This document shows, piece by piece, positions 4,034 to 14,266 of a DNA stretch of 64,000 bases. How positions within the stretch are numbered: the first letter of the stretch is position 1; each line of letters opens with the position of its first letter. The notes below the pieces were generated by a model. That model was not told where the DNA came from and did no database searches. It saw only the letters and a list, made by a program, of their open reading frames with translations. The DNA comes from an uncultured Clostridia bacterium (GTDB lineage: Bacteria > Bacillota > Clostridia > Oscillospirales > Oscillospiraceae), in NCBI GenBank assembly GCA_947307255.1, contig CAMZIO010000002.1:1-64000 (forward strand), read 5' to 3'. The position numbers and the translations under genes are program-made.

Positions 4034-4054
4034 GTGCGGCTTCGGAGGAAAACG

Positions 4055-6043
4055 ATGGAGGTAATACTTGCGAAAACTGCCGGCTTTTGTTACGGCGTGG
4101 AGCGCGCGGTTGCGCTGGCGGAAAAGACCGCACAGGTGTGCGGCGGCGTCATGCTCGGCAGCGTGATCCACAATGCCAACGTGATTGCACGGCTGGAGTC
4201 GTTTGGAATGCGCCGGGCGGAAAGTCCGGAGGAAGTCGGGCCGGGGGAGACGGTTTTGATCCGCTCGCATGGCGAGCGGCGGCAGACCATGGACGCCCTT
4301 GCCGAACGCGGCGCAGACGTCGTCAACGCGACCTGCCCCAACGTGCAGCGGATCCAGCGCCTGATCGCAGAGGCACAGCAGGAGGGGCGAAGCGTGGTGA
4401 TTATCGGCGAAGCGCGGCATCCGGAGGTCATCGGACTTTCCAGCTGGTGCGGTGAGGCGGTGGTGCTGGAAACGGAGGAGCAGACGCGGAAATGGCTGGC
4501 TGAGGATCTGATAGGATCGGATAGACCGCTGCTCGTAGTGTCTCAGACGACCTGTATCCGTGCCTTGTGGGAAAAATGCGTAGAAATTATAAAAAAAGAG
4601 TGTACAAATCTAAAAGTTCATGATACAATATGCAACGCTACGCAGAAACGGCAGGAAGAGGCGGCAAAAATTGCCGCCAAAGCCGACGTGATGGTAGTGG
4701 TAGGGGACCGCAAAAGCGCAAACACCAGGCATTTGACAGAGATTTGCAAAGAGGCCTGCCCGCGGGTGATCCAGATCGAAGCCGCGGACGAGCTCTCGCC
4801 GGATATCTTCTTGGGATGCTCTCTTGCGGGTCTTACCGCCGGCGCGTCAACGCCTGCGAGCATCATTAAGGAGGTATATACAACCATGACGGAAGAAATC
4901 AAAACCACGGAAGGAACGGAGTCCTTCGAAGAACTGCTCGAAAAATCTTTCAAGACTTTAAATACAGGAGATAAGGTAACCGGCGTCGTTACGGCGATCG
5001 GCGCAACTGAGATTCAGGTTGATCTGGGCTGCAAGCAGGCCGGTTACATTCCTGTGTCTGAGCTGAGCAACGACCCCGACGCAAAGGTCGAGGATATCGT
5101 CCACGTTGGCGACGAGATCGAGACCTACATTGTCCGCGTCAACGACGTGGAAGGTTACGCAACCCTTTCCAAGAAGCGCCTCGACGCGGTGAAGGTTTGG
5201 GAGAATATCGAAGAAGCCGTTGAGAACAAGACCGTTCTTGAGGGCGTGGTCACGGAAGAGAACAAGGGCGGTATCGTCGTTTCCGTCAAGGGTGTTCGCG
5301 TTTTCGTTCCCGCTTCCCAGAGTGGTCAGCCGCGTGATGCGGATCTGAGCGCTATGCTCAAGCAGAAGGTTCAGTTGCGCGTAACCGAGGTCAACCGTGC
5401 CCGCCGCCGCGTGGTCGGTTCGATCAAGTCCGTGCTCAACGAGGCGCGCCAGGCCGCCCAGGCGGAGATCTGGAACAACATCGAGGTTGGCAAGCACTAC
5501 ACCGGCACGGTCAAGTCCATGACCTCTTACGGCGTGTTTGTGGACATTGGCGGCGTGGACGGCATGGTCCACATCTCCGAGCTCTCCTGGAGCCGCATCA
5601 AGAATCCTGCCGAGGTCGTCTCTGTCGGCGACACGCTGGATGTCTACGTCATCTCCTTCGATCCCGAGAAGCGTAAGATCTCCCTCGGCGTTAAGGACCG
5701 CACCCAGAACCCTTGGGATGTGTTCATGAACACCTATAAGGTCGGCGACGTTGCCAATGTCCGCATCGTCAAGCTGATGACCTTCGGCGCTTTTGCTGAG
5801 GTCGTTCCCGGTGTGGACGGTCTGATCCACATCTCCCAGATCGCGGATCGCCGCATCGACAAGCCCTCCGACGTGCTGTCCGAAGGCCAGATGGTCGACG
5901 CCAAGATCACCGCTGTGGACGAGGAAAAGAAGAAGATTTCTCTGAGCATCCGCGCGCTGCTCGCTCCCGCCGCGCAGGAAGAGGCGGTTGAAGAGGCGGT
6001 CGAAGAAGCGGCTGAACCCGCAGAGGCTGCCGACGCTGAGTAA
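4055..6043 (+). CDS. ispH-rpsA: Fused 4-hydroxy-3-methylbut-2-enyl diphosphate reductase / ribosomal protein S1
   Basis: IspH N-terminal half (AKTAGFCYGVERAV, NATCPNV, TTMTEE) continuous with four S1 domains (YGVFVDIGGVDGMVHISELSW etc.). Confidence 0.95.
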   Translation: MEVILAKTAGFCYGVERAVALAEKTAQVCGGVMLGSVIHNANVIARLESFGMRRAESPEEVGPGETVLIRSHGERRQTMDALAERGADVVNATCPNVQRIQRLIAEAQQEGRSVVIIGEARHPEVIGLSSWCGEAVVLETEEQTRKWLAEDLIGSDRPLLVVSQTTCIRALWEKCVEIIKKECTNLKVHDTICNATQKRQEEAAKIAAKADVMVVVGDRKSANTRHLTEICKEACPRVIQIEAADELSPDIFLGCSLAGLTAGASTPASIIKEVYTTMTEEIKTTEGTESFEELLEKSFKTLNTGDKVTGVVTAIGATEIQVDLGCKQAGYIPVSELSNDPDAKVEDIVHVGDEIETYIVRVNDVEGYATLSKKRLDAVKVWENIEEAVENKTVLEGVVTEENKGGIVVSVKGVRVFVPASQSGQPRDADLSAMLKQKVQLRVTEVNRARRRVVGSIKSVLNEARQAAQAEIWNNIEVGKHYTGTVKSMTSYGVFVDIGGVDGMVHISELSWSRIKNPAEVVSVGDTLDVYVISFDPEKRKISLGVKDRTQNPWDVFMNTYKVGDVANVRIVKLMTFGAFAEVVPGVDGLIHISQIADRRIDKPSDVLSEGQMVDAKITAVDEEKKKISLSIRALLAPAAQEEAVEEAVEEAAEPAEAADAE

Positions 6044-6123: not shown

Positions 6124-6402
6124 CCACAGCTTCGCGGCAGATCTATTGAAAGTCATCTGTTATCACAAGTAAGTTATGCACAACAAGGTGTTGACAAGCC
6201 ACTGGAAGTTTGTGCAAAATATGTGATGACAGATGAAAGCCGAGTGAGGCGTGGTGGATGCTGGAATAATCAACGCAAAAAAGTATCAGGCGCAAAAGTT
6301 TGGGTCGACACGAACGGCTGCGCATGATATAATATTACATAAGAAAGGAAAGAGAAAATCATGGAAATGGCGTTGAACATGGGCACGTTTGAGGCACTCG
6401 AC
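6124..6402 (+). repeat. Cassette anchor A, copy 1 (promoter region + leader start)
   Basis: ccacagcttcgcggcagatctattgaaag...gaggcactcgac, repeated four times nearly identically. Confidence 0.97.
6305..6333 (+). promoter_or_regulatory. sigma-A-type promoter, cassette 1
   Basis: TCGACA - 17 nt - TATAAT. Confidence 0.75.
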
Positions 6403-6630
6403 AACAGCGAGTTGTTCGCCGTGGACGGCGGCCGACCTGCGGCACAGTGGATTGAAGGCGCTTGTGCTGTTACTGGCTTGATCGTTGGGGGTGTTGCAGG
6501 TTATGTGGTTGGTAATGCAGCTGGTGCTTATGCTGGAGCAAAATGGGGCAGAGTCATTGGCTTCGCGGCTGGAACAGCGGTGACTATTGTCGTTTCAAAG
6601 GTAATTCGAAACATCTACTATGGAGATTGA
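6361..6630 (+). CDS. Double-glycine-leader bacteriocin-like precursor, cassette 1
   Basis: Leader MEMALNMGTFEALDNSELFAVDGG, then a small Gly/Ala-rich hydrophobic core with GxxxG motifs (GLIVGGVAGYVVGNAAGAYAG). Confidence 0.85.
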   Translation: MEMALNMGTFEALDNSELFAVDGGRPAAQWIEGACAVTGLIVGGVAGYVVGNAAGAYAGAKWGRVIGFAAGTAVTIVVSKVIRNIYYGD

Positions 6631-6653
6631 TTGACGGAACGAGGAGGGTTTTG

Positions 6654-6947
6654 ATGTCTTTGCGCAATTTTCTAATTTCACTGGGAACAGGTACCCTTTT
6701 ATCAGTTTTTTTTGCATTTTTTGAAACACGCACAAATATGAAGCGAAAAATACTGGATAAGTTGGGCCGGGGTTGGTCTTCTGTTGTATACCTTTTGCTT
6801 GTGGTTGGGCTTGTAGTGGTCTGTGTTGACCACTTTGGCGAAGACATACTAAACAATCCTGTGGTATATGGAATACTTTGTGCAGTTGCTTTTTATGCTG
6901 TGCCAAGATCATTTGACCAAAAGAGTAAGGAGAATAGATATGAGTGA
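6654..6947 (+). CDS. Small membrane protein, putative immunity protein of cassette 1
   Basis: ATG after gaggaggg SD; MSLRNFLISLGTGTLLSVFFAFF...; three hydrophobic segments; directly follows the precursor gene. Confidence 0.6.
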   Translation: MSLRNFLISLGTGTLLSVFFAFFETRTNMKRKILDKLGRGWSSVVYLLLVVGLVVVCVDHFGEDILNNPVVYGILCAVAFYAVPRSFDQKSKENRYE

Positions 6948-7076
6948 TAAAACTTTTTGCAATTTAAGCGATGGTTAGTTGGGCCTTGTGCTGCGCTGCT
7001 ATTGGTGGACTTTTTTGAGATAAGAAAAGCAAATACGAGTGGATAATTCCGCTCGTATTTGCAACTAAGATGGAAC

Positions 7077-7152
7077 ATGAAATACTACTGCATCAAGCAT
7101 CATAACGGATTGCTGGGCGGCGTGCCTTGCCACCGTGTCCAAACAGTACGGG
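7077..7152 (+). pseudogene. 5' fragment of C39 peptidase/ABC exporter gene, cassette 1
   Basis: atgaaatactactgcatcaa...gccaccgtgtccaaacagtacggg matches 11423 onward, then diverges. Confidence 0.9.
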
Positions 7153-7183
7153 AGCTTTCTATATAGATAAATAGATAAATAGA

Positions 7184-7225
7184 GAACGACGAGGGCCGTT
7201 ACGGCTCCCGTCGTTCTGCTTTTTT
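7184..7225 (+). terminator. Cassette 1 terminator
   Basis: gaacgacgagggccgttacggctcccgtcgttctgctttttt hairpin plus T tract. Confidence 0.8.
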
Positions 7226-7504
7226 CCACAGCTTCGCGGCAGATCTATTGAAAGTTATCTGTTATCACAAGTAAGTTATGCACAACAAGGCGTTGACAAG
7301 CCACTGGAAGTTTGTGCAAAATATGTGATGACAGATGAAAGCCGAGTGAGGCGTGGTGGATGCTGGAATAATCAACGCAAAAAAGTATCAGGCGCAAAAG
7401 TTTGGGTCGACACGAACGGCTGCGCATGATATAATATTACATAAGAAAGGAAAGAGAAAATCATGGAAATGGCGTTGAACATGGGCACGTTTGAGGCACT
7501 CGAC
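7226..7504 (+). repeat. Cassette anchor A, copy 2
   Basis: Direct repeat of 6124-6402 with a couple of substitutions. Confidence 0.97.
7407..7435 (+). promoter_or_regulatory. sigma-A-type promoter, cassette 2
   Basis: TCGACA - 17 nt - TATAAT. Confidence 0.75.
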
Positions 7505-7681
7505 TATCGGGAAATGATGAATGTGGAAGGCGGCGGTCCGTTCGGCTGGATGCTGGCAGGCTTTGCCGTTGACGGTGTAGTAAAGGCTGCAACAGGTCGA
7601 TATGTGGGTGAATGGTTTGCCTATGCCATTGAAGAGACCCCTCCAAAAACTCCGCCTATTAAGAATTATCGTCATCGCTGA
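7463..7681 (+). CDS. Double-glycine-leader bacteriocin-like precursor, cassette 2
   Basis: Leader MEMALNMGTFEALDYREMMNVEGG; core GPFGWMLAGFAVDGVVKAATGRYVGEWFAYAIEETPPKTPPIKNYRHR. Confidence 0.8.
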   Translation: MEMALNMGTFEALDYREMMNVEGGGPFGWMLAGFAVDGVVKAATGRYVGEWFAYAIEETPPKTPPIKNYRHR

Positions 7682-7739
7682 TAGTTGACATTGTCGAGAA
7701 TTATAATTTTTTTGTAAGGGAAAACATTTTAAAAGGAAC

Positions 7740-7773
7740 TATCATGGGCGGCAATTATTTGCCGCCCATGATA
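7740..7773 (+). promoter_or_regulatory. Perfect hairpin between precursor and immunity gene, cassette 2
   Basis: TATCATGGGCGGCAA-ttat-TTGCCGCCCATGATA, 15-bp arms. Confidence 0.8.
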
Positions 7774-7825
7774 AAAAACAGGAAAATCCCATGCTTTTAT
7801 CGTCTTTTTATGTTTGAGGTGTTCT

Positions 7826-8446
7826 ATGCGTCTGAGGTACAAAGGATTCGTTAGAAATGCAACCGACTTGCCGGAGTTCGATTTGCCTGCCAATGCGGTT
7901 CAGTTCAAAGAGCCGGAAACAGTGAAAGGATTTTTTCGCAGAGCGATGTTTCTTTATTCGATTCCCTTGATAGCATTTGTTTTGGCTATCCGAGGCGCAG
8001 AGATTCGTCTTTGGGAAACATATGTTCCTTGGGAACCCTGTGATTTATTGGGCTGTTTGATTGCACTTCTACTTTTAGTTCCGCATGAATTGCTGCACGC
8101 CGTTTGCTTCCCGAAGGAAGCCGAAGTATATCTGTATTTCTGCTCACAGGGTGCGATGGTAACTTGTAAAGAACCTCTATCAAAACGTAGGTTTATCTTT
8201 ATGTCATTGCTCCCGCTGATAATACTTGGCATTTTACCGATGCTTATCTGGCTGGTGATGCCGCCTGCACAATTCTCTTCCGACTTCCTGTTTACGTTTT
8301 ATACCGTTGCTGCTATCAATACGCTTGGCTGCTGCGGGGATTTGATGAACGTGTACAACGCTATGAGGCAAGTTCCGAACGATGCCCTGGTTCAGATGTC
8401 AGGGATCCATACTTATTGGTTTGCTACCGATGAGAATAACGGATGA
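7826..8446 (+). CDS. DUF3267-like membrane protein (putative zincin), candidate immunity protein of cassette 2
   Basis: PHELLHAVCF (HExxH) in a multi-span membrane protein; ATG at 7826 follows gaggtg. Confidence 0.7.
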   Translation: MRLRYKGFVRNATDLPEFDLPANAVQFKEPETVKGFFRRAMFLYSIPLIAFVLAIRGAEIRLWETYVPWEPCDLLGCLIALLLLVPHELLHAVCFPKEAEVYLYFCSQGAMVTCKEPLSKRRFIFMSLLPLIILGILPMLIWLVMPPAQFSSDFLFTFYTVAAINTLGCCGDLMNVYNAMRQVPNDALVQMSGIHTYWFATDENNG

Positions 8447-8455
8447 GAATAACGT

Positions 8456-8531
8456 ATGAAATACTACTGCATCAAGCATCATCACGGATTGCGCCGCGGC
8501 GTGCCTCGCCACCGTGTCGAAGCAGTACGGG
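8456..8531 (+). pseudogene. 5' fragment of C39 peptidase/ABC exporter gene, cassette 2
   Basis: Same start and same 3' breakpoint as 7077-7152. Confidence 0.9.
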
Positions 8532-8554
8532 AGCTTTCTATATAGATAAATAGA

Positions 8555-8595
8555 GAACGACGAGAGCCGTTACGGCTCCCGTCGTTCTGCTTTTT
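8555..8595 (+). terminator. Cassette 2 terminator
   Basis: gaacgacgagagccgttacggctcccgtcgttctgcttttt. Confidence 0.8.
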
Positions 8596-8874
8596 CCACA
8601 GCTTCGCGGCAGATCTATTGAAAGTCATCTGTTATCACAAGTAAGTTATGCACAACAAGGTGTTGACAAGCCACTGGAAGTTTGTGCAAAATATGTGATG
8701 ACAGATGAAAGCCGAGTGAGGCGTGGTGGATGCTGGAATAATCAACGCAAAAAAGTATCAGGCGCAAAAGTTTGGGTCGACACGAACGGCTGCGCATGAT
8801 ATAATATTACATAAAAAAGAAAAGAGAAAATCATAGAAATGGCATTGAATATGGGCACGTTTGAGGCACTCGAC
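8596..8874 (+). repeat. Cassette anchor A, copy 3
   Basis: Direct repeat of 6124-6402; first leader ATG is ATA. Confidence 0.97.
8777..8805 (+). promoter_or_regulatory. sigma-A-type promoter, cassette 3
   Basis: TCGACA - 17 nt - TATAAT. Confidence 0.75.
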
Positions 8875-9015
8875 CAGCAGGAAATGTATGACGTGGACGG
8901 CGGCGGCGGAAAAATTAGGGACTGGGCTATTGGTTTTTTCGTTGACAAAGCCATAAGTTTTCTTGTTTATTGTTCTAAAAACTATCCAGACCCGTATCGT
9001 GAGCATCATCAGTAA
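8839..9015 (+). CDS. Double-glycine-leader bacteriocin-like precursor, cassette 3 (58 aa, absent from supplied ORF track)
   Basis: MALNMGTFEALDQQEMYDVDGGGGKIRDWAIGFFVDKAISFLVYCSKNYPDPYREHHQ*, same leader as cassettes 1, 2 and 4. Confidence 0.8.
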   Translation: MALNMGTFEALDQQEMYDVDGGGGKIRDWAIGFFVDKAISFLVYCSKNYPDPYREHHQ

Positions 9016-9034
9016 ATCATAGAGCATCAAAAAT

Positions 9035-9068
9035 TATCATGGGCGGCATATATTTGCCGCCCATGATA
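9035..9068 (+). promoter_or_regulatory. Hairpin between precursor and immunity gene, cassette 3
   Basis: TATCATGGGCGGCA-tatatt-TGCCGCCCATGATA, same arms as cassette 2 hairpin. Confidence 0.8.
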
Positions 9069-9776
9069 CAGGTCTTGCAAGCGTTGATTCTTTTTGCCGT
9101 GTTTTGCTCTTTAGTCTGTGAGGTGAGGTATGTGAGTAGAAAAAGACTGTGTATCATTTTCTTCATTTTGCAGCCATTATGCAGTTTCTTGTTGGCTGTA
9201 ACTATATACGATATAGCGGAAGTACCCGAATATTCTATCGCGCAAGATAGCGTACGGGCATATGCCATTGTGCTGATTTCCCTGTTGTTCAGCACATATA
9301 TCGCCTATCGCAATCGCAACGTCATGAAGCGCGATTACGTGGAGCAGGAGAAGCGGCCAGCGATCTTTTTGTGCAAAACGCTGATTCTTTTGGTTATTAC
9401 TCTGCTTTTGGGAGAGCTGTGTTACTATTTGGTGGATACCTTTTTCCCACAGGTGGTTTGGGAGAACGAACAATACCTTGACTTATATCAATCTCTGGTT
9501 CCATTCCCGCTTTTCTTTGCGAATATTTGCATTTTTGGTCCCATAGCAGAAGAACTCGTCTTCCGCTACGCCCTGCAAGGTGGGATTAAGCGAAAACCTT
9601 GGAATGTGATTTTTGCATCTCTGATTTTTGGACTTTTACATACAGGGTTTCATCCAGAGATTATCGTCTATGCGGTGTTAGGGTTATGCTATGGCATTGC
9701 CTATGAAAAGACGCAGGATATCAATGTGCCGATTTGTATGCACATTGCGAATAATGTGTTTTCTACAATATTTTGA
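9063..9776 (+). CDS. CPBP family intramembrane metalloprotease, candidate immunity protein of cassette 3 (start uncertain)
   Basis: EELVFRYALQGG, FGLLHTGFHPE, MHIANNVF motifs; track start 9039 lies in the hairpin. Confidence 0.8.
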   Translation: MIQVLQALILFAVFCSLVCEVRYVSRKRLCIIFFILQPLCSFLLAVTIYDIAEVPEYSIAQDSVRAYAIVLISLLFSTYIAYRNRNVMKRDYVEQEKRPAIFLCKTLILLVITLLLGELCYYLVDTFFPQVVWENEQYLDLYQSLVPFPLFFANICIFGPIAEELVFRYALQGGIKRKPWNVIFASLIFGLLHTGFHPEIIVYAVLGLCYGIAYEKTQDINVPICMHIANNVFSTIF

Positions 9777-9797
9777 TTTGTAGAGAGGAGCGGATTC

Positions 9798-10040
9798 ATG
9801 GTTTCGAAATTTATAGAAAAATGGGCAGACGAACGTTCCGGCGGGATGCAAAAATACTATGTCCGTCATTTATTGGGCATGACTGGAATTCTGAGTGCCA
9901 TGATTATTGGAGATTATCTTGCAAACAAAGAGTTCTCAGTTCTTTTCCTTTGTATAGCTATAGTCGTTTCTCTATGCTTTCCTATACTGTCTTGGTTTTT
10001 AAACGAATTGCGCTACCGTAAGTACCTACGTGATCAATGA
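9798..10040 (+). CDS. Small two-span membrane protein, candidate accessory immunity protein of cassette 3
   Basis: MVSKFIEKWADERSGG...; stop overlaps ATG of the C39 fragment (ATGA). Confidence 0.55.
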   Translation: MVSKFIEKWADERSGGMQKYYVRHLLGMTGILSAMIIGDYLANKEFSVLFLCIAIVVSLCFPILSWFLNELRYRKYLRDQ

Positions 10041-10105
10041 AATACTACTGCATCATCACGGATTGCGCCGCGGCGTGCCTTGCCACCGTGTCCAAGCAGT
10101 ACGGG
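10037..10105 (+). pseudogene. 5' fragment of C39 peptidase/ABC exporter gene, cassette 3
   Basis: In frame as MKYYCIITDCAAACLATVSKQYG then SFLYR*; same 3' breakpoint as other copies. Confidence 0.9.
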
Positions 10106-10128
10106 AGCTTTCTATATAGATAAATAGA

Positions 10129-10169
10129 GAACGACGAGGGCCGTTACGGCTCCCGTCGTTCTGCTTTTT
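10129..10169 (+). terminator. Cassette 3 terminator
   Basis: gaacgacgagggccgttacggctcccgtcgttctgcttttt. Confidence 0.8.
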
Positions 10170-10448
10170 CCACAGCTTCGCGGCAGATCTATTGAAAGTC
10201 ATCTGTTATCACAAGTAAGTTATGCACAACAAGGTGTTGACAAGCCACTGGAAGTTTGTGCAAAATATGTGATGACAGATGAAAGCCGAGTGAGGCGTGG
10301 TGGATGCTGGAATAATCAACGCAAAAAAGTATCAGGCGCAAAAGTTTGGGTCGACACGAACGGCTGCGCATGATAAAATATTACATAAAAAAGGAAAGAG
10401 AAAATCATAGAAATGGCATTGAACATGGGCGCGTTTGAGGCGCTCGAC
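10170..10448 (+). repeat. Cassette anchor A, copy 4
   Basis: Direct repeat of 6124-6402; first leader ATG is ATA; -10 TAAAAT. Confidence 0.97.
10351..10379 (+). promoter_or_regulatory. sigma-A-type promoter, cassette 4 (weaker -10)
   Basis: TCGACA - 17 nt - TAAAAT. Confidence 0.7.
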
Positions 10449-10616
10449 AACAGCGAGTTGTTCGCCGTGGACGGCGGCGGGCCGGCTACGATATTTCTTT
10501 CTGCAGTTGGCGTTGCAGTTAGTCCTGTAGTTATGTTCTTTAATCCATGCGTCGGTATAGGATTGCTCTTTGTATCGTCAGGGACGCTACTTAATGAAAT
10601 TGAAAAGTATAGGTAA
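10413..10616 (+). CDS. Double-glycine-leader bacteriocin-like precursor, cassette 4 peptide a
   Basis: Leader MALNMGAFEALDNSELFAVDGG; hydrophobic core. Confidence 0.8.
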   Translation: MALNMGAFEALDNSELFAVDGGGPATIFLSAVGVAVSPVVMFFNPCVGIGLLFVSSGTLLNEIEKYR

Positions 10617-10637
10617 TTTATATGAGGGGGATTCTAT

Positions 10638-10838
10638 ATGATTTCTACGCATAGTTTTCTTGAGTTAAGCATAGATGAATCATACTTAATAAACGGTGGC
10701 GGTACGCTGGGTAATAGCCTTATATTTGTTGGCGGTGTATGCATCGCTGTCGGTGGATGTGTTTGTGAAGCTCCATTGGTTATCGCCGTTGGGGTGTATG
10801 TTGCGATTCTCGGCCTTTGTCAAGCTCAAGGTTGGTGA
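10638..10838 (+). CDS. Double-glycine-leader bacteriocin-like precursor, cassette 4 peptide b
   Basis: Different leader MISTHSFLELSIDESYLINGG; Gly/Cys-rich hydrophobic core. Confidence 0.75.
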   Translation: MISTHSFLELSIDESYLINGGGTLGNSLIFVGGVCIAVGGCVCEAPLVIAVGVYVAILGLCQAQGW

Positions 10839-10853
10839 ATGAATAGATCCGGA

Positions 10854-10883
10854 TCCGAGCAATGCAGATACTCATTGCTCGGA
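10854..10883 (+). promoter_or_regulatory. Hairpin between precursor pair and immunity-like gene, cassette 4
   Basis: tccgagcaatg-cagatact-cattgctcgga, 11-bp arms. Confidence 0.7.
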
Positions 10884-10913
10884 CCTTTATTGGAAAGCGG
10901 GAGGAATGTTTGC

Positions 10914-11426
10914 ATGAGAAGCATGATAATAGTCTATACAGTGTTTGTCGTTTCTTTTTTACTATTTCAAATTTTTTCAGTTGTTAGATTTGCGGTGAGA
11001 GCCAGGCGCGCCCATGCATCATTCTTGCTTGATTTGGGGTATTCATTTGCGATGCTTTTGTTTCATATTGTTGGTTTTTCGCTGTTATTTGATGCGATTT
11101 ATTGCGTTCTTATAAGTCCTGACGCATTTGCTGATAATCCTTTACCATTTGCTGTTGGAACAATGCCGATTATAGCTTCTTTATCGTCATTGATGTTGAA
11201 TGAGGGATTATTTGCATATACAGATGATAGATTATATGGACGAAGCCATATATGGGAACTATCAAGTATTGAAGATATCGCTGCGAAGAGCAGTATGCCA
11301 TTTCATCGCGCGAGGGTAACCATATCGTTTGACAACTCAAAAAAAGCTCTGATTCGCACTTCAATGTCTCGGTACGAAAAGTTTAGCAAGGCTGTTAAGA
11401 ATTCAAGAATTGACCCTATACAATGA
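10914..11426 (+). CDS. Membrane protein, candidate immunity protein of cassette 4
   Basis: ATG after gcgggagg SD; N-terminal membrane spans and C-terminal soluble part; stop overlaps exporter ATG (ATGA at 11423). Confidence 0.6.
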   Translation: MRSMIIVYTVFVVSFLLFQIFSVVRFAVRARRAHASFLLDLGYSFAMLLFHIVGFSLLFDAIYCVLISPDAFADNPLPFAVGTMPIIASLSSLMLNEGLFAYTDDRLYGRSHIWELSSIEDIAAKSSMPFHRARVTISFDNSKKALIRTSMSRYEKFSKAVKNSRIDPIQ

Positions 11427-12115
11427 AATACTACTGCATCAAACAGCACGACATCACGGATTGCGCCGCGGCGTGCCTCGCCACCGTGTCCAAACAGTAC
11501 GGGCTGTCCACGTCCATCACGAAGATCCGCGAGATCGCCGGCACGGATAAGCTGGGCACCAACGCCTACGGCATGGTCAAAGCCGCCGAACAGCTCGGCT
11601 TTACCGCCAAGGCGGTCAAGGGCAACAAGGAGGCGCTGTTCTCCGAGTTTCCGCTGCCCGCCGTCGCCCACGTTGTCGTGGACGGGACGCTGCTGCACTA
11701 CGTCGTGCTGCATAAGATCACGCAAAAAGAGATCGTGATTGCCGACCCCGCCAAAGGGCTTGTCAAAAAGACGCCCGAGGACTTTTTTAAGGAGTGGACG
11801 GGCGTGCTGATTTTGCTCGTCCCCGCGCAGACCTTCCAAAAGGGAAAGGAGACGAAAAACATCTTCGAGCGTTTCTGGGGGCTGCTGTTGCCGCAGAAGC
11901 GCTTGGTTCTGGACATTTTCGCCGCCTCGCTCGTCATCACCGCCCTCGGCATTCTGGGTGCATTTTACTTCCAGATCATCATTGACGACATCCTGCCCGC
12001 AGGCCTGAAAAAAACGCTGACGGTTTTATCCGTTGGCGTGATATTGCTGCGGCTGTTTTCGGTGGCGCTGTCGGTGCTGCGCACGCAGCTTTCTTTACCA
12101 AAACAGCGTAGATGA
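11423..12115 (+). pseudogene. Truncated C39 peptidase/ABC bacteriocin exporter (peptidase domain plus start of TM domain, no ATPase)
   Basis: MKYYCIKQHDITDCAAACLATVSKQYG (C39), HYVVLHKI, IADPAKG; ends LSVLRTQLSLPKQRR* at a fusion junction; no Walker motifs follow. Confidence 0.85.
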
Positions 12116-12692
12116 AACCGGCACACCACTGTCCGTTTCCCTTGCGACGGTAGAGCAGCTTTCGGCGATCATGAACCGCTTGGAGAGCACTGAAACGCAG
12201 ATTGAAGAGTTGGACGCACAGATCGAACGGACAGAAGAACAGCTTCGTCACGGCACTGTCCGCGCCGAGCAATCGGGGGTCCTCAATGCTGCGTCTGCCA
12301 TCGTAGCGGGAGATGTGATCACGTCTGGCAGCGTTCTTGCAACGATCATTCCTGTTGATGAAAGCGAGTTCAAGGTGCAGATCTATGTCAGCAGCGCGGA
12401 TATGGGGAACTTGAAAGTGGGGGATGAGATCAAATATAACATTTCCGCCCTGCCGAGCAATCAGTACGGAACGGTTTCCGGCAAAGTATTGAGCATATCG
12501 CAGGATGCTCTGGTACAGGATGGGCAATACTCCGGCTATTTTCTCGTGGAGGGCAGCATTGGCAATGCGGAACTGAACGATAAGGACGGTAACGTGGGGA
12601 AGATTGCGATTGGAATGCAGACTGAAGCAAAGATCGTAACGCAGACCAAGACGATCATTCGCTATCTATTGGAAAAGATCAACCTGTTCTGA
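12092..12692 (+). pseudogene. 3' remnant of HlyD-family bacteriocin export accessory protein
   Basis: Open frame LYQNSVDETGTPLSVSLATVEQLSAIMNRLES...VRAEQSGVLNAASAIVAGDVITSGSVLATIIPVDESEFKV; N-terminal membrane segment missing. Confidence 0.8.
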
Positions 12693-12925: not shown

Positions 12926-14266
12926 ATGGACTATGCTGCACTCTATCAGAAAAAGCTGACCAGCGCCGAGAATGCGGTTAAGCTCGTCAAATCCGGCGAC
13001 TGGGTCGATTATGGCTGGTGCACCAACCATCCCTACACGCTGGATAAGGCGCTTGCCGCGCGGACGAACGAGCTTAGAGACGTTAAGGTTCGCGGCGGCG
13101 TAACGATGTGGATGCCTGAAATCTGCAAGGCGGAGGATGCCGGCGAGCATTTCACCTGGCATTCCTGGCATTGCAGCGGCATTGACCGCAAGATTATTGC
13201 CAAGGGTATGGGCTATTTCTCCCCGATGCGCTACAGCGAGCTGCCGCGCTTTTACCGCGACGGCAACGTCAGCGTGGACGTTGCGATGATCCAGGTTACC
13301 CCGATGGACAAGCATGGCAACTTCAGCTATGCACTGGCGTCTTCTCATCTGGCGGATATGCTGGAGCGGGCCAAAACGGTCATCGTCGAGGTCAACGAAA
13401 ATATGCCCTGGATCTACGGTCTGACCGGCTGCGAGATCAACATTGAGGACGTCGATCTGGTCGTCGAGGGAGAGAATCCCCCGGTGGCGCAGCTTGGCGC
13501 CGGCGGCGCGCCCACGGAGGTGGACCGCGCGGTGGCAAATCTGGTCGTGCCGGAGATTCCGAACGGCGCCTGCCTGCAGCTCGGTATCGGCGGTATGCCG
13601 AATACGATCGGCTCGATGATTGCCCAGTCCGATTTGAAGGATCTGTCCGTCCATACGGAGATGTACGTCGACGGATTCGTCGATATGGCGCTCGCCGGCA
13701 AGATTACCGGCAAGTATAAGACGCTGGACAAGGGCCGCCAGGTGTTTGCGTTCGCCGCGGGTACGCAGAAGCTGTATGATTATATGGACCGCAACCCCGC
13801 CGTGATGGGCGCGCCGGTGGACTATACCAACGACGTTCACGTCATCAGCCAGATCGACAACTTCATCTCCATCAACAATGCGATCGACTGCGATCTCTTC
13901 GGCCAGATCAATGCTGAATCCGCCGGTATCAAGCATATTTCCGGCACCGGTGGCCAGTTGGATTTCGCCATGGGCGCATATCTCTCCCGGGGCGGGAAGA
14001 GCTTTATCTGTATGTCCTCCACCGTTACCGGTAAGGACGGCAGCGTCAAGAGCCGCATCGTACCGACGCTGACGCCCGGCTCCATCGCAACCGACCCGCG
14101 TTCCTGCGTGCATTACGTCGTTACGGAGTACGGCATGGTCAACCTCAAGGGCCTGTCTACCTGGGAGCGTGCGGAGGCGCTGATCGGTATCGCTCATCCC
14201 GACTTCCGCGATGAGCTGATCGCACAGGCGGAAAAAATGCACATCTGGCGTCGTTCCAACCGTTAA
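12926..14266 (+). CDS. Acetyl-CoA hydrolase/transferase family protein (butyryl-CoA:acetate or 4-hydroxybutyrate CoA-transferase-like)
   Basis: [49 protein letters not shown]. Confidence 0.88.

Follow-up and report, generated by a model that had tools for sequence, protein, structure and literature searches.

How does a bacteriocin locus come to hold several unrelated sets of peptide and immunity genes between flanks that barely differ from one another? We addressed this question for a tandem array at positions 6124 to 12692 of a 64,000-nt stretch of DNA (here called the window; positions 1 to 64,000 of contig CAMZIO010000002.1, assembly GCA_947307255.1) from an uncultured member of the Oscillospiraceae. 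The source genome (G000) is a single metagenome-assembled genome (MAG) of 61 contigs and 86% completeness. Four tandem units of double-glycine bacteriocin genes lie between an ispH-rpsA fusion gene (ending at 6043) and a CoA-transferase gene (starting at 12926). Units 1 to 3 end in short 5' stubs of the exporter gene, and such stubs recur in other genomes. Our best explanation, with a probability of about 60%, is that whole operons accumulated, that exporters were lost by deletion, and that payloads turned over by recombination in the flanks. Immunity roles are assigned throughout by position and family only.

Anatomy of the array

Each unit opens with a 279-bp anchor containing a promoter and the start of a double-glycine leader. 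The four anchors align without gaps at 97.1 to 99.3% identity, and the payloads that follow are unrelated, as the initial annotation of this DNA had stated; chance cannot produce four repeats of about 280 bp. The features are listed below; L030 is the locus of the sister species G015 (labels with L denote loci fetched through their exporter).

6124-6402, + strand: anchor 1, with promoter TCGACA-17-TATAAT at 6305-6333 and leader start (alignment, promoter motif)
6361-6630, + strand: unit 1 double-glycine bacteriocin precursor, 89 aa, GxxxG-rich core (PF10439, 34.5 bits)
6654-6947, + strand: unit 1 small membrane protein, candidate immunity protein (position; weak BacA-like match only)
7077-7152, + strand: exporter stub 1, 5-bp deletion, out of frame (match to exporter start)
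7153-7225, + strand: junction 1 with hairpin terminator (alignment, folding)
7226-7504, + strand: anchor 2 (alignment, promoter motif)
7463-7681, + strand: unit 2 double-glycine precursor of 72 aa (PF10439 match short of the cut-off, E = 0.0013)
7740-7774, + strand: unit 2 palindromic hairpin between peptide and immunity genes, same as in unit 3
7826-8446, + strand: unit 2 DUF3267 putative membrane zincin, candidate immunity protein (PF11667, 91 bits)
8456-8531, + strand: exporter stub 2 (match to exporter start)
8532-8595, + strand: junction 2 with terminator (alignment, folding)
8596-8874, + strand: anchor 3, in which ATA stands in place of ATG and an internal ATG lies at 8839 (alignment)
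8839-9015, + strand: unit 3 double-glycine precursor, 58 aa (TIGR03949, 21.1 bits against a cut-off of 21.5)
9034-9068, + strand: unit 3 palindromic hairpin
9063-9776, + strand: unit 3 CPBP (Rce1-like) protease, candidate immunity protein, start codon uncertain (PF02517, 74 bits)
9798-10040, + strand: unit 3 small membrane protein, stop overlapping the start of stub 3 (ATGA) (open reading frame [ORF] list)
10037-10105, + strand: exporter stub 3, 12-bp deletion (match to exporter start)
10106-10169, + strand: junction 3 with terminator (alignment, folding)
10170-10448, + strand: anchor 4 (alignment)
10413-10616, + strand: unit 4 double-glycine precursor A of 67 aa (PF10439 match short of the cut-off, E = 8e-4)
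10638-10838, + strand: unit 4 precursor B of double-glycine type, 66 aa, which may be the partner in a two-peptide system (GG leader read from sequence; no family match)
10914-11426, + strand: unit 4 membrane protein, 170 aa, candidate immunity protein, stop overlapping the exporter start (ATGA) (ORF list)
11423-12090, + strand: C39 exporter, 5' 667 nt only, peptidase and first membrane segments (TIGR01193 positions 1-217 of 708; breakpoint against L030)
12093-12692, + strand: HlyD accessory protein, 3' part, fused by a 3.2-kb deletion (TIGR01843 positions 245-411)

The promoter TCGACA-17-TATAAT occurs in every anchor (as TAAAAT in unit 4), and each junction carries a terminator-like hairpin, which bears out the initial annotation on both elements. 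Leaders of units 3 and 4 start at an internal ATG (ATAGAAATG); in units 1 and 4 the similarity continues for about 40 bp past the anchor, through the leader up to GG. Payload DNA shows no similarity between units except for one 37-bp palindromic hairpin in units 2 and 3, and its GC content is 40 to 44%, against 58% in the exporter and 57.6% in the window. Only the unit 1 precursor exceeds the PF10439 (Bacteriocin_IIc) cut-off of 27.1 bits; those of units 2 to 4 fall below it and have the same leader.

The stubs behind units 1 to 3 (69 to 76 bp) match the exporter start at 11423. Junction and terminator had been called identical after these units; stub and terminator are shared by all three and near-identical, with small indels and a few substitutions. 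Judged from their sequence, the window stubs are dead. At six differing sites the three stubs are different mixtures of G000-like and G015-like exporter alleles, which suggests separate histories, six sites being few. Because the flanks differ by 1 to 3%, the payloads are unrelated, and the three junctions look like descendants of one deletion, the payloads appear to have changed after the junction formed. The ORF list of the interval includes no integrase, and the junctions carry terminator and exporter stub instead, which is not the composition of an integron array.

The exporter in unit 4, at 11423, is itself broken, a point missed by the initial annotation. Over its first 667 nt it shares 89% identity with the intact L030 exporter (718 aa); the last 600 nt of HlyD come next, corresponding to a 3.2-kb deletion relative to this sister species. 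The TIGR01193 score is 171 bits, against a cut-off of 523.85 for a full-length C39 exporter. No intact C39 exporter was found in G000 (at 86% completeness an unassembled copy is possible): a C39 query matched this array only, and the best TIGR01193 matches elsewhere in the genome begin after the C39 domain. The deletion looks recent, since the C39 part is free of frameshifts and its protein matches that of G015 at 94% identity. With the local exporter truncated, the array may now be immunity only, and it probably serves as an immunity store without secretion.

The chromosomal site points to acquisition from elsewhere. In the 15 other congeners in which the CoA-transferase gene was found, it lies about 100 to 230 bp from rpsA and the interval is empty. 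The G015 exporter, 94% identical in protein to that of G000, occupies a different chromosomal site with a different payload. Close exporter relatives are patchy (few of 401 family genomes reach 60% identity), and a species-wide scan placed relatives in Oscillospiraceae, Ruminococcus, Lachnospiraceae and others. We rejected a mobile carrier: plasmid and phage relatives reach at most about 61% identity, and the five plasmid loci read (four from Paraclostridium sordellii and one from Clostridium) are without stubs. The anchor pattern, the junction pattern and the exporter gave zero matches to viral contigs.

Several observations concern the anchors and their surroundings. The promoter was rejected as a genome-wide repeat, as its motif has one other exact site in the genome. 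The motif GTCGACAC...TATAAT also lies before other genes of G000 (G000:C19:9002-9031 and G000:C9:6119-6164) and is common to bacteriocin anchors of two other species (L030, about 9274; L033, about 4787). DnaA-box-like TTWTNCACA sites occur at 6174-6182 (+) and 6211-6219 (-), repeated in anchors 2 to 4, and at 7222-7230, 8592-8600 and 10166-10174. The upstream anchor parts thus hold 11 of the 15 matches in the window (2.4 expected), representing about three independent sites only; this part is missing from the G015 anchor. The cluster is possibly an origin-derived or DnaA-bound element. An inverted repeat matching at 12 of 13 bp, CATCTGTTATCAC / GTGATGACAGATG, seen by eye at 6154-6166 and 6225-6237 and in the other anchors, lies upstream of the promoter and is a possible operator. 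In unit 1, a short broken leader-like ORF (MSDKTFCNLSDG, then a stop) and a hairpin at 6940-7064, ahead of stub 1, are likely remains of a second peptide/immunity pair. Next to the array, a single 669-aa ORF (4034-6043) combines ispH with rpsA (S1). In several species the bacteriocin operon is preceded by a conserved gene of about 157 aa (L030, 7343-7817; L031, 5159; L032, 7116; L038, 8226), which has no Pfam match (checked for L032).

The hairpin of units 2 and 3 was likewise rejected as a genome-wide repeat. Because it lies between unrelated genes and at no other site in the genome, it may be a further crossover point. A strong hairpin is usual between peptide and immunity genes (12 of 16 hand-picked folded regions had a z of about -3 or lower), with sequences that vary from cassette to cassette. 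Such hairpins may set the peptide-to-immunity ratio by stabilizing or partly terminating the message.

Exporter stubs in other genomes

We used full-length exporters as tblastn queries, each against its own locus, and ran HlyD in the same way (26 loci). Exporter stubs were found in at least 10 other genomes from two families, including the cultured isolate Lachnospira multipara ATCC 19207 (L053); loci L065 to L069 were possibly retrieved through their stubs, which calls for caution on this count. Seven loci with full-length exporters, the retrieval of which was independent of stubs, hold extra exporter fragments (L030, L031, L033, L035, L038, L045 and, with three, L053). Every one of these fragments starts at residue 1. 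The sole other exporter piece comprises 25 aa (residues 195 to 219) directly behind a residue-1 stub in L053. HlyD gave no convincing fragment in its 26 loci. A second scan, with exporter residues 1 to 218 against 31 whole genomes, agreed on residue-1 starts, barring contig-end cases and one frameshifted piece. The view that exporter scars are a real, recurring signature of modular cassettes is thereby supported. Of 29 sites checked, 7 have the stop codon of the immunity gene overlapping the start of the exporter.

The search for the anchor in other genomes, suggested in the initial annotation, matched G000 alone among 401 genomes of the family; similar anchor patterns occur in other loci. L042 has two units with a 164-bp anchor (94% identical), S41-peptidase payloads and a stub of 11 residues between them, and L033 has four units with similar anchors and leaders, one stub and CPBP proteases. 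S41 peptidases stand at the immunity position in three cassettes (L031, 7632-8993; L042, 6307-7848 and 8331-10001) and possibly represent an unrecognized immunity family. L048 and L049 share about 98% identity in the exporter region; what separates them is roughly one 372-bp peptide gene, the leader of which has a near-identical second copy. This near-strain difference and the payload swap between G000 and G015 at the species level are the observations that bear on module gain, loss or swap between strains with constant flanks.

In L053, an immunity-type gene followed by a stub occurs three times, and an integrase gene, peptides and the intact exporter come next. The stub at 7727 retains, in operon order, 125 bp of the exporter 5' end, 39 bp of HlyD (100% identical), 26 bp of late HlyD and the post-HlyD terminator. 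It is a decayed operon copy and not a clean insertion scar. The stub at 6802 joins residues 1 to 42 to residues 195 to 219. L154 is an exporter-5'::HlyD-3' fusion, as in window unit 4. Given these fusions and the ordered remnants at 7727, at least some scars are whole operon copies with exporter and HlyD internally deleted.

Formation of the array

We propose that a class II (double-glycine) bacteriocin operon was acquired horizontally here and turned into a tandem library. Its working unit would run from promoter through leader/peptide(s), immunity gene(s), C39 exporter and HlyD to terminator. Complete extra units with other payloads would accumulate by homologous recombination in the shared flanks, either where incoming DNA enters by one crossover or where crossing over is unequal; genes could also be added when one end joins illegitimately. 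Because one exporter serves all peptides sharing a leader, extra exporter and HlyD copies would be redundant and lost by internal deletion. Upstream units would keep the first 30 to 200 nt of the exporter, with the immunity gene as the left limit, and the last exporter of G000 would have been deleted in the same manner. Later exchange between anchor and stub/terminator would swap payloads and leave the flanks almost identical. As the flanks are 97 to 99% identical and the payloads nonhomologous, payloads were presumably exchanged after the flanks had been copied. Of the initial idea that leader and exporter start serve as recombination arms, the fixed flanks and unrelated payloads stand as observations, from which we infer active exchange.

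Some findings weigh against this explanation. The three window junctions were searched for HlyD and post-HlyD native-terminator sequence, and none was recognizable; operon decay is shown in L053 and not in the window, where the identical joint could stem from one deletion followed by unit amplification. In L030, a second immunity-type gene comes immediately after the stub and ahead of the exporter, with neither anchor nor terminator in between. For the species of the window the comparisons are with other species, and unit order, copy number and the exporter deletion all rest on one MAG.

The L030 arrangement favors homology-facilitated illegitimate insertion. One end of the incoming payload-exporter DNA would pair with the resident exporter and the other would join illegitimately inside the exporter 5' end, so that a stub forms in a single step and no whole-operon stage is needed. 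This route, proposed for immunity arrays of the Vibrio cholerae type VI secretion system (T6SS) (PMC5361080), would also account for stubs always being 5' ends. Against it stand the HlyD and terminator pieces in L053 stub 7727, the joined residues of stub 6802, the downstream position of stubs relative to the exporter operon in L035 and L045, and the full anchor, promoter and terminator of the window units, and we consider it unlikely as the general route, while noting that operon decay and one-sided illegitimate insertion may both operate. The same downstream scars speak against a dedicated capture site beside the exporter, where new cassettes would enter between leader and exporter start as homology arms and displace older ones upstream. 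That order, favored in the initial annotation, finds some agreement in the conserved anchors and stubs and in the intact or least-broken exporter at the downstream end of most loci. Scar decay does not increase steadily upstream, however, in either the window or L053, and the window array lacks an integrase or attachment site, which makes a capture site improbable. An assembly artefact, in which collapsed or chimeric repeats created both the array and the exporter deletion, is conceivable for a single MAG of 61 contigs with near-identical repeats of about 430 bp. We regard it as very improbable, since the architecture recurs in independent assemblies (the isolate L053, as well as L033 and L042); the stubs also carry distinct indels and alleles. 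Accumulation and decay of whole operons thus remains our preferred explanation.

Relation to known toxin/immunity arrays

The initial analogy to orphan toxin/immunity arrays was supported. T6SS orphan immunity arrays of V. cholerae (Kirchberger 2017, PMC5361080) likewise show stepwise addition of effector/immunity modules, retention of old immunity genes, remnants of the replaced gene and a proposed homology-assisted recombination. They belong to a different secretion system and lose the effector while keeping its 3' end, whereas the present array usually keeps the toxin peptide and loses the exporter, leaving the exporter 5' end. Orphan cdiA-CT/cdiI modules of contact-dependent inhibition (CDI) systems (PMC9086364) are likewise toxin/immunity modules arranged in tandem next to an active locus, and they have a conserved flank for recombination; their toxins lack a start codon, whereas the present units keep their own promoter and start, and the scar is the exporter. 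More generally, the CDI, Rhs or T6SS module is a C-terminal toxin fragment of a CdiA-, Rhs- or VgrG-type effector, and the present payloads are small double-glycine peptides and membrane proteins, so the resemblance is in logic only. Pneumococcal blp loci (PMC4860687) resemble the array in their double-glycine peptides, in immunity proteins of the CAAX-protease and small membrane types, in their fluid content and in leader recombination. blp is one region under quorum sensing, whereas the present array consists of separate promoter-terminator units with exporter stubs, and the ORF list of the rpsA-CoA transferase interval includes no pheromone, histidine kinase or response regulator. In the tandem immunity paralogues esaG/tipC of the type VII secretion system (T7SS; PMC9484751), conserved blocks at both unit ends drive recombination; only homologous immunity genes are involved there, in contrast to the unrelated payloads here. 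By its scarred exporter, the promoter and start codon kept in each unit and the lack of quorum-sensing genes in the interval, the array belongs to none of CDI, T6SS, T7SS and blp. We found no earlier description of exporter stubs in double-glycine bacteriocin arrays in the open-licence literature.

Tentatively, gut Clostridia may share a pool of bacteriocin/immunity cassettes in which the anchor and the first exporter codons act as portable homology arms. Units could then cross species and plug into any resident exporter, and some strains would then lose the exporter while retaining the library for broad immunity. The exporter 5' stub offers a simple sequence signature by which genomes can be searched for earlier gains and losses of bacteriocins, for orphan immunity and for lost exporters, and it flags immunity genes of unknown type (DUF3267, S41 peptidases and small membrane proteins). 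How gut bacteriocin repertoires diversify thereby becomes a directly testable question. The orphan toxin/immunity principle is known from large contact-dependent toxins; the findings carry it over to small bacteriocins exported by gut Firmicutes, and the recurrence of stubs points to a general route for building toxin/immunity gene libraries in gut bacteria.

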